From: Candidatus Poribacteria bacterium
GTDB taxonomy: Bacteria > Poribacteria > WGA-4E > WGA-3G
Length of the DNA stretch: 48,614 nucleotides
NCBI GenBank assembly: GCA_009843785.1
Contig: VYCT01000158.1
Span: 7,966 to 56,579, forward strand
Direction of reading: 5' to 3'
The position numbers and the translations under genes were made by a program. Shown here piece by piece: positions 1,285 to 43,908 of this stretch; position 1 is the first letter of the stretch; each line of letters opens with the position of its first letter. The notes under the pieces are model-generated. The model did not search any database, was not told where the DNA came from, and saw nothing but the letters and a program-made list of their open reading frames with translations.

Positions 1285-2028
1285 ATGAAAACTTCCATAG
1301 GGCAGGTAACTCTTATTGTTGTACTGACGCTGTGTGTCAGCATCAGTTATGCTGAGATCTTATTTCACGACGATTTTGAGCGTCAAGAAATTGACCGCGC
1401 TCAATGGGCACCGCAAGTGAGTTGGGGACTTAAGGAGAATGACACGCGACATGATGTGCTTGATAGAAGAGTGCTCGACGTTTGGGGCGGCGGTGCGGGG
1501 TTGACGCTTACCGATTTCCCCGAAGAATTCGACTACTACGCTGATTTCAATGCAAAAAATGGCGGTTCGTTGGGGTTCGTTTTCCACGCGAGGAACGACA
1601 AATACTTCTATATGCACGATATCTCAACTGCTGGTTCTAAGCACGCACCACAACACATCGGATGGCATATAAACCTTGAGAACAATTGGTCCGTCGAAAC
1701 AACGCCTTTCGCAGATGAAAGAAAACGTAGGCAGAATGTTTGGTACCGCGTCAAGTTTGAAGTGCGCAAGAACTACAAGTTTAAGGCATACCTCGGTAAA
1801 GTTGGCGCGAAATGGAATAGTCTTGTTTTTGTCGGAGAATGGATTGATAGTGAGGAGAGATACGAAAAGGGTAAAATCGGTTTCTACGCGCGAGGCGGTA
1901 ATCGGGGCGCGGCCGCCCATCACGCGCAATTAGATAATATTTTTGTCACCACCCCGGGATTTAACATCTTTCCTGTTGAATCCAGAGGCAAACTCGCGGT
2001 AACGTGGGGAAACCTTAAAACACAATGA
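1285..2028 (+). CDS. Secreted DUF1080/LamG-like beta-sandwich protein
   Basis: About 247 residues with an N-terminal signal peptide (MKTSIGQVTLIVVLTLCVSISYA). The body begins ILFHDDFER and continues with LGFVFHARNDKYFYM and later EKGKIGFYARGG. This pattern is typical of concanavalin-like sandwich domains such as the 3-keto-disaccharide hydrolase or laminin G families. It ends with VESRGKLAVTWGNLKTQ, the tag also found at 1208 and 13085. An in-frame TTG at 1270 is an alternative start; neither has a clear ribosome-binding site. The stop overlaps the next start in ATGA, which suggests translational coupling to the oxidoreductase. Enzymatic activity is not shown. Confidence 0.7.
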   Translation: MKTSIGQVTLIVVLTLCVSISYAEILFHDDFERQEIDRAQWAPQVSWGLKENDTRHDVLDRRVLDVWGGGAGLTLTDFPEEFDYYADFNAKNGGSLGFVFHARNDKYFYMHDISTAGSKHAPQHIGWHINLENNWSVETTPFADERKRRQNVWYRVKFEVRKNYKFKAYLGKVGAKWNSLVFVGEWIDSEERYEKGKIGFYARGGNRGAAAHHAQLDNIFVTTPGFNIFPVESRGKLAVTWGNLKTQ

Positions 2029-3035
2029 ACTCTCAAAAACGATTGACAATAGGCATTATCGGTTCTGGCAATATGGGCAGACATCATCAGAGAATAGCAA
2101 CCGAGTACGGCGCAAGCGTCGTTGCGGTCCATGACGTGCAACTTGAGGCAGCACGCGAACTCGCAACGCATACTGACGGAGCACTCGCCACTACCGATTT
2201 AGATGCTTTTTTCGATATAGAAATGGATGGAGTGGTTATCACAACACCACCCCCTATTCGCTTTGAACCTATTCAGATGGCGTGCGATCGCGGTATTTCC
2301 GTCATGGTCGAGAAACCGCCTGCGCTGAATATGATTGAAGGTAGAAAGTGCCTTGAAGCCATTGAGAAAGCAGGTATCATCGCCGCCGTGGGATTCCAAC
2401 TCCGCTATCATCCGCTCTATGAACGGTTGAAGGCGTTAATCGCTTCGGAGACGGTACACCTCGTCCGGACGGTCTGCACCGTCAATTATTACCTTAGCTT
2501 CAGCATGGCACCATGGTTCTTGCAGTATGAAATAAGTGGGGGGCCCTTGCCTGAACAGGCGGTGCATGTATTGGATTGTGCGCGGTTTGTTATGGGAAAC
2601 CCGAAACCCGTGCAAGCACATGCTTTGGCTACTAAAAATATGGCACTGGAACGGACCGAATTTGATGCGGAAAACGCTATTCAGATGACTTACCAGTTGG
2701 ATAACGGCGTTTTCGGAACACACATGAATCACTGCGGCACAGAAGGATTTACTTTCGAGGTTGAAGTCGTCGGACCGCATTTGCGACTACACGCACACAT
2801 GACAGATAACACTATTCGCGGGTACCTTAACGGTGAAACTGTTAATGAACCGGCAGTCTCCGAAAACAGTTTAGGCTTAGACAAAACTGAGGCGTGGCTG
2901 CGCGCCATTGAAACTGGTGACAGGACACTCATCCGCTCGCCTTTTGCGGATGGCGTGCAGACACTCGCCTTAATTGATGCCGCGGTCCAGAGCCGCGACA
3001 CTGGTAGATTTATTAATGTGGAAGAATTGAGTTAG
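2025..3035 (+). CDS. Gfo/Idh/MocA family NAD(P)-dependent oxidoreductase
   Basis: A 336-residue protein. An N-terminal Rossmann fold shows GIIGSGNMGRHH at residues 9-20, followed by the EKP signature in MVEKPPALN near residue 102, which places the catalytic lysine. EQAVHVLD near residue 180 fits the active-site histidine helix of the C-terminal alpha/beta domain. The family oxidises or reduces sugars, inositols and related compounds in the cytoplasm; the substrate cannot be read here. The start overlaps the stop of the upstream secreted carbohydrate-binding-type gene by 4 nt, so a role in sugar use is plausible. A second family member lies at 35070-36035. Confidence 0.88.
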   Translation: MNSQKRLTIGIIGSGNMGRHHQRIATEYGASVVAVHDVQLEAARELATHTDGALATTDLDAFFDIEMDGVVITTPPPIRFEPIQMACDRGISVMVEKPPALNMIEGRKCLEAIEKAGIIAAVGFQLRYHPLYERLKALIASETVHLVRTVCTVNYYLSFSMAPWFLQYEISGGPLPEQAVHVLDCARFVMGNPKPVQAHALATKNMALERTEFDAENAIQMTYQLDNGVFGTHMNHCGTEGFTFEVEVVGPHLRLHAHMTDNTIRGYLNGETVNEPAVSENSLGLDKTEAWLRAIETGDRTLIRSPFADGVQTLALIDAAVQSRDTGRFINVEELS

Positions 3036-3106
3036 AAAAGCGGATAGACGGGTAAGCACTTGAAGTTTTCAATCCACTTCATCGAACCGCAAGGAAAATT
3101 AAAAAA

Positions 3107-3445
3107 ATGGTAGATTGGATTTATTTTCGGAATAGCTGAAACTCATGCAAAAAAGTGCAAGAGTTTCTTGACACACATAATGTACAAGCAGAAAACCGTA
3201 CGGACGCTCGAAAAGAGAAAATGGATGCTGAAACGGTATGGGCTTTAATGGGCGATGCGAAGCAGATTGTTGTCGCGAAAGGGAAGCGCGTTGAAACTTT
3301 CGTGCCGTCTGATGACACACAAGCACCGATTTTGAAAGCGGTCCTCGGTCGTAGCGGTAGCCTGCGCGCACCGACAGTCCAGAGTGGAGATGTCTTTTTT
3401 GTCGGCTACAATGTAGCACTCTATGAGAACCCACCGTTTGTCTAA
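3107..3445 (+). CDS. Candidate selenoprotein, Spx/ArsC-like thioredoxin fold (in-frame UGA at 3137-3139)
   Basis: ATG 3107 has AAGGA at 3091-3095. The frame reads MVDWIYFRNS, then TGA at 3137-3139, then NSCKKVQEFL and onward to the stop at 3443-3445: 112 residues if UGA is read as selenocysteine. The context S-U-N-S-C-K-K matches the S-C-T-S-C-R-K redox site of Spx and ArsC-family proteins, with U replacing the first cysteine. The remaining fold is intact: strand WIYFR, helix KKVQEFLDTHN, and a late R-A-P-T-V segment followed by GDVFFVGYN, as expected for the cis-proline region. Without readthrough only a GTG-initiated fragment (3155 onward) would be made, lacking the first strand and both redox residues. 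The role is probably thiol or selenol redox chemistry; the substrate is unknown. The selenocysteine machinery is not in this window. A sequencing error or pseudogene remains possible. Confidence 0.75.
3139..3166 (+). promoter_or_regulatory. Candidate bacterial SECIS hairpin
   Basis: Directly after the UGA, AAACTC (3139-3144) pairs with GAGTTT (3161-3166). After a single A-A mismatch, TGCA (3146-3149) pairs with TGCA (3156-3159), closing a six-base loop AAAAAG (3150-3155) that contains a G. Bacterial SECIS elements lie within the coding sequence just downstream of UGA and usually carry a G in the apical loop. This loop sits slightly closer to the UGA than in Escherichia coli fdhF. Confidence 0.6.
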
Positions 3446-3466: not shown

Positions 3467-4234
3467 ATGGCAACCATTGAAAAAATTTTGATTACGGGTG
3501 CAAGCGGATATTTAGCGCAATTTATTATTGACCGGTTGTACGGCACGTATGAACTGACGCTGACTGACATCGTTGAACTGGATCAGGTGCCTGCAAACAC
3601 GACCTTTATCAAGGCGGATGTGACAAACGCTTCTGAGATTGAGGCAGCGTGTGCCGAGCAGGATGCGGTTGTGCATCTCGTTGCCTTGGTACGAGGACGG
3701 TCTGATAAACCTGCTTCGTTATTTGCGGATGTGATGGTGAAGGGTACATGGAATGTCGCTGAAGCCTGCGTCCGACAAGGTGTACGGAAACTTGTGAACA
3801 TATCAAGTATATCGACGTGTCCTCCGGCTCCCGGCGTAAAATTGCCGTACGAGGTCGGTGATGATTTTCGGTTTGGCTCTGGAGATCTCTACTATGCGCT
3901 TGCGAAGTACCTCGGAGAGCGGATCGGCGCAGCCTACCATCAGGCACACGGATTAGATGTAATTCATGTCCGTCCTGGGGTTATCGCTGGCGATGGACAA
4001 AACCCCGGTCCAGCAGCCCCTGATGTTGTAACGGATCCTTGGTTCGTTTATGTGGATCCGAGAGATGTCGCGCTGTGTGTCGCCCGCGCACTTGAGACGG
4101 AAACGGTAAAATATGGGGCTTATAACGCCGTTGCTGGACGTACGGATTCCCGTTTTTCGTGGCAACAGGCAGCAGATGATTTAGGATATTCTCCAGAGCA
4201 CAACTGGCCAGATATCCCCGGCGGCGAGACGTAA
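3467..4234 (+). CDS. NAD-dependent epimerase/dehydratase (extended SDR)
   Basis: A 255-residue cytoplasmic protein with the nucleotide-binding motif ITGASGYLAQ near the N-terminus, an acidic strand end (LTLTDIVELD), FIKADVTN, LVNISSIS for the catalytic serine strand, and YYALAKYLGE carrying the Y-x-x-x-K pair. These define the NAD-dependent epimerase/dehydratase group, which usually acts on nucleotide sugars. At 255 residues it is short for the family, with a reduced C-terminal substrate domain. GAGGA lies about 9 nt before ATG 3467. It follows the candidate selenoprotein by 21 nt and is 2 nt from the methyltransferase start, so it may share their transcript. Confidence 0.82.
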   Translation: MATIEKILITGASGYLAQFIIDRLYGTYELTLTDIVELDQVPANTTFIKADVTNASEIEAACAEQDAVVHLVALVRGRSDKPASLFADVMVKGTWNVAEACVRQGVRKLVNISSISTCPPAPGVKLPYEVGDDFRFGSGDLYYALAKYLGERIGAAYHQAHGLDVIHVRPGVIAGDGQNPGPAAPDVVTDPWFVYVDPRDVALCVARALETETVKYGAYNAVAGRTDSRFSWQQAADDLGYSPEHNWPDIPGGET

Positions 4235-43421: not shown

Positions 43422-43551
43422 GCAACACCTCCTAAAATATGTTGTCTCTCAAAACGTTAAGATAGGAATTGATGACAGAAAGGTTGCATAAAATACAAGA
43501 TTTAGGAAAAATTCTATCATTAAAGTGGGGAAATTTGAAATAGAACGAGAA

Positions 43552-43908
43552 ACTTGAGTTGAGAATAAGCCGGATTCTGTATGTGATGATCATTCATCTG
43601 GGATGGATGTTACCATCCACCTCAAGCGGTTACCTGGGGACGAGGCGGGCAACCTGTATGTGTCCCCGATTTACCTTGCTCCAGATGGGGTTTACATAGC
43701 TCCATAAGTCACCTTATGGACTGGTGCGCTTTTACCGCACCGTTTCACCTGTACAGCGTTTTGAGACGTTGTAGTTTACTTTCTGTTGCACTTTCCATAG
43801 CGTCGCCACTCCTGGGGGTTACCCAGCATCCTGCCCTGCGGAGTCCGGACTTTCCTCATCCCGATGGTAATACTACAATCAGGACGCGACCATCTACTCA
43901 ACTCAAGT
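43552..43908 (-). ncRNA. rnpB: RNase P RNA (bacterial type A)
   Basis: The reverse strand contains the universal segment GAGGAAAGTCCGGACTCC, followed by GCAGGGCAGGATGCTGGGTAA, and near the 3' end ACAGAATCCGGCTTA. The ends pair as helix P1 (ACTTGAGTTGAG with CTCAACTCAAGT, at 43897-43908 and 43552-43563), which sets the borders at about 357 nt. It is the catalytic RNA that trims tRNA 5' leaders. Confidence 0.95.

Follow-up and report, generated by a model that had tools for sequence, protein, structure and literature searches.

The closest described relatives of the gene reported here make up NCBIfam family NF041106 (ArsC_rel_Se_1, "ArsC family (seleno)protein"). A 2026 review lists this family in its Table 1 as "Arsenate reductase-like protein" with a UxxC motif, among the high-confidence predictions (PMC13188914), and credits it to the Global Ocean Sampling analysis of 2008 (reference 61 of that review; PMC2398784), where a table row reads "Arsenate reductase 2, cd03032, UxxC." We infer that this row and NF041106 denote the same family, which is also listed in a 2022 review (PMC9312934). 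The first-pass annotation of the locus had supposed that a selenocysteine (Sec) form of this kind was not known as characterized; this held insofar as the reviews give no biochemistry, but the form had already been catalogued both in NCBIfam and in the reviews themselves.

Two further groups of proteins share features with the gene product. Spx/MgsR and YffB/ArsC-related proteins (TIGR01617; PDB entries 3ihq, 1rw1, and 2kok) have in common with it a thioredoxin fold, an N-terminal (C/U)xxC motif, and a downstream R-x-P, but it scores far under their family cut-off and carries Sec in place of Cys. In its predicted fold, moreover, a single helix is followed by a beta hairpin (53-65), in place of the helical insert of ArsC and Spx. 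Selenoprotein glutaredoxins and the "UXX-star" Grx-like selenoproteins are likewise small Grx-fold proteins with Sec first in the motif, but they represent different families.

The gene lies at positions 3107 to 3445 (+ strand) of the window, by which we mean the whole 48,614-nucleotide stretch of a Candidatus Poribacteria MAG that was analyzed. It consists of a single 112-codon frame running from ATG 3107 to TAA 3443-3445, and a TGA at 3137-3139 is its sole interruption. With this codon 11 read as U, the product has 112 amino acids (MVDWIYFRNSUNSCKKVQEFLDTHNVQAENRTDARKEKMDAETVWALMGDAKQIVVAKGKRVETFVPSDDTQAPILKAVLGRSGSLRAPTVQSGDVFFVGYNVALYENPPFV), and the TGA falls on the first position of the redox motif S-U-N-S-C, the second member of the UxxC pair being Cys14 (3146-3148). 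A possible Shine-Dalgarno sequence, AAGGA, is located at 3091-3095, with 11-base spacing to the ATG. The mechanical open reading frame list contained only a 96-amino-acid frame from GTG 3155, which lacks the motif. The first-pass annotation had described the locus in these terms, as a frame open but for one TGA at the head of the motif, whose active site would be lost by standard gene calling from GTG 3155, and all of this was borne out. It had further remarked that the fold continues in frame on either side of the TGA; in the named relatives, protein identities are 39 to 95% on both sides of this codon.

The product matched NF041106 over the full length of the model (1-107/107) with 120.3 bits against a cut-off of 85 (5e-35); with the same length and the same UxxC motif, it shows no difference from the family at this level. 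Three other models scored below their thresholds: 12.2 bits for Pfam ArsC (PF03960; gathering cut-off, 24), 17.1 bits for Pfam glutaredoxin (cut-off, 22.9), and 21.4 bits for Spx/MgsR TIGR01617 (cut-off, 75). The protein is thus a member of the ArsC/Spx/Grx fold group, yet neither an ArsC nor an Spx by curated thresholds, and it is a well-supported addition to a known but biochemically uncharacterized selenoprotein family.

In named genomes we found 22 related loci, 21 of them in Poribacteria (62 to 95% identity) and the remaining one in a Desulfobulbaceae MAG (39% identity). Among 85 Poribacteriota genomes, 71 had a match, 70 of these above the curated cut-off, and in each of the 71 the matched stretch contained a single in-frame TGA and was otherwise free of stops. 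The phylum of the Desulfobulbaceae MAG (395 genomes) contributed 28 members above the cut-off, all 28 of which likewise had one TGA. Retention of the codon to this extent goes far beyond chance. UGA was therefore present in every homologue when the site was checked for Cys or UGA, and no member with Cys in place of Sec scored above the cut-off in the 480 genomes of the two phyla. Because many independent assemblies carry the TGA, a sequencing error at this position is excluded. The 84 distinct proteins that were read out all had Sec11, Arg8, and the motif G-x-L-R-[AS]-P, and 83 of them had Cys14. The sole exception carries Ser in place of Cys14 (U-A-S-S; region L118:1528, genome G137), a hint that one selenol may be enough. 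One Poribacteriota copy (L087, genome G048) is cut off by a TAA after about 60 codons and was the only apparently broken member seen.

The genome from which the window derives encodes the complete set of selenocysteine genes named in the first-pass annotation, selA, selB, selC, and selD. selA was found with an E value of 5e-157 and selD with 361 bits. selB scored 345.6 bits (cut-off, 242) on contig C234; since the selB model also scores weakly on other elongation factors, only this place was counted. The tRNA-Sec (78 bits; anticodon TCA according to ARAGORN) lies 39 bases after the selB match on the same contig. The selD of this genome (G000:C132:36283-37206, locus L059) is itself a selenoprotein gene, with a TGA in KCAG-U-ASK. 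A short G-rich hairpin with a GGG loop follows its UGA; its stem is comparable to that of the hairpin described below and was not significant against shuffles.

Downstream of the TGA, positions 3155 to 3174 can form a compact hairpin (GUG CAAGA [GUU] UCUUG A CAC) with a stem of 3 + 5 pairs, one bulged A, and a 3-base loop that reads GUU or GGU and is separated from the UGA by 23 bases. We take its loop size, leading G, and distance from the UGA to fit the bacterial SECIS consensus. Across 55 distinct Poribacteriota genes, mean synonymous diversity was 0.03 at codons 16 to 22, compared with 0.53 at codons 24 to 100, and none of 100,000 random draws gave a value as low. K16 (AAA), Q18 (CAA), and L21 (CTT) each used a single codon in 55/55 genes, even though leucine has six codons to choose from, and the same was true of E19 (GAG, 54/54) and D22 (GAC, 53/53). 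In the alignment 97% of the pairs were kept, and double changes compensated at three of the eight pairs (six changes from UA to CG, two from GC to UG, and one from AU to CG). This amounts to 9 double-change cells against 2.1 expected, a value reached in 0/500 shuffles, with the structure picked from the same alignment. RNAalifold recovered the stem unprompted, and the fold z score was -2.5. The hairpin of the other phylum is in a slightly different register; two cross-phylum DNA alignments, each of which had a mis-oriented row, were left out of the analysis. On this comparative sequence evidence, we identify the hairpin as a bacterial SECIS element.

When the window sequence is folded alone, the lowest energy belongs to a rival hairpin in which the UGA itself is included (-13.4 versus -7 kcal/mol) and which could compete with the SECIS in this genus. 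We considered this hairpin, which directly follows the UGA (AACUC.UGCA...UGCA.GAGUU), as a conserved SECIS and rejected it: its covariation equalled that of shuffles, and one pair was broken in 13 of 29 sequences.

Conservation of the TGA in two phyla, the presence of the Sec machinery, the synonymous freeze, and the covariation of the hairpin together lead us to regard 3107-3445 as almost certainly a genuine selenoprotein gene in which the TGA encodes selenocysteine, as the first-pass annotation had proposed. A TGA that is a real stop, in a decaying pseudogene or ahead of a product translated from GTG 3155, is exactly what standard gene calling yields, but we consider it extremely unlikely. 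Decay cannot produce a TGA that is conserved, along with the ten codons preceding it, in every member from two phyla; the Sec machinery is present; and the GTG forms the base of the covarying hairpin, with no ribosome-binding site seen before it. Reassignment of TGA to Trp or Gly was likewise rejected, since TGA terminates 7 of the 37 large open reading frames in the window.

The AlphaFold2 model of the 112-amino-acid protein was confident (pLDDT, 92.5; pTM, 0.86) and has the order b1-a1-b2-a2-b3-b4-a3-b5-b6-a4. Its top 10 PDB fold matches were all Spx, YffB, or ArsC related, with probabilities of 0.98 to 1.0, modest TM scores of ∼0.5, and a best E value of ∼1e-3 (1.4e-3). The Spx/ArsC relation drawn in the first-pass annotation thus stands only at the level of the fold and is not matched by the Pfam ArsC score, which lies under its cut-off. 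In the alignment to the ArsC-related chain 2kok, Arg87-Ala-Pro89 (3365-3373), part of the invariant G-x-L-R-[AS]-P, falls on the ArsC/Spx site of the cis-proline and the oxyanion/pKa arginine.

Motif and fold suggest that the product, which is probably cytosolic and compact, is quite likely a selenol-disulfide oxidoreductase of the Grx/Spx fold with a Sec-Cys pair. In the mechanism that we propose, SelB carrying Sec-tRNA(UCA) would bind the hairpin downstream of the UGA, and selenocysteine would be inserted as residue 11. The nucleophile that attacks a disulfide or another oxidized substrate may then be Sec11, located where helix 1 begins. The resulting selenylsulfide would be resolved by Cys14, while Arg87, beside Pro89, could lower the selenol pKa or bind an anionic substrate, and the enzyme would presumably be recycled by a cellular thiol system.

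The name given to the family in the reviews, together with a distant similarity to ArsC and the conservation of the R-x-P motif, would suit a true Sec-dependent arsenate reductase in which Sec11 attacks arsenate and releases arsenite. We nevertheless consider this improbable, and arsenate reduction by the product is not supported. The Pfam ArsC score is subthreshold, classical ArsC has a CxxS motif with a single Cys whereas the motif here is UxxC, and no arsenic gene was identified beside 3107-3445. Whole-genome searches returned no match to Pfam ArsC and no SBF/ACR3-type arsenite exporter (PF01758), so that arsenate detoxification is unlikely here. We give still less credence to an Spx-like redox-switch regulator that binds the RNA polymerase alpha subunit and uses the Sec-Cys pair as its sensor. 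Spx chains are indeed the best fold matches, and UxxC corresponds to the CxxC switch of Spx, but the TIGR01617 score is only 21 bits against the required 75, TM is no higher than ∼0.5, and there is no regulatory partner gene.

The gene is well suited as a starting point for assaying the catalytic role of the NF041106 family, although it leaves current understanding unchanged. What it adds is the phylum-wide distribution in Poribacteria, the covarying SECIS hairpin, and the absence of a Cys form from the genomes searched. Poribacteria, which are abundant sponge symbionts, retain the use of selenocysteine throughout their phylum, in what appears to be a Sec-only redox protein, and the locus provides a compact and clean SECIS for this lineage in a gene whose active site is dropped by standard gene calling. 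It is conceivable, if rather doubtful, that the family exists only in the selenocysteine form, which would suggest chemistry in which a thiol cannot replace the selenol. Such chemistry might, for example, be of the one-electron, peroxide, or metal(loid) type, or the protein might serve as a redox sensor, in place of ordinary disulfide reduction.

The gene is flanked on the same strand by a GFO/IDH/MocA oxidoreductase gene upstream (2025-3035) and by an NAD-dependent epimerase/dehydratase gene downstream (3467-4234). Both, like an N6/N4-methylase gene, are syntenic in near relatives only, and we rejected a function deduced from these neighbors, to which there is no functional link. No conserved gene partner was found outside the near relatives, where the neighbors are unrelated and, judging from our reading of the sequences, presumably include topoisomerase-IV-like, BioF-like, and rhodanese or NFACT-like genes. 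The sole Rfam match in the window was a class A RNase P RNA at 43551-43905 (- strand; 299 bits).

Finally, two loci in the phylum of the Desulfobulbaceae MAG (L123:1468-1815 and L124:1486-1830; genomes G396 and G152) encode a different, full-size Spx/ArsC-like protein with an in-frame TGA first in the motif (U-T-T-C). These proteins scored 79.9 and 72.7 bits against the Spx/MgsR cut-off of 75 and do not belong to NF041106. They appear to represent an Spx/ArsC-related protein in selenocysteine form, possibly closer to the "Arsenate reductase 2" row of the ocean survey.
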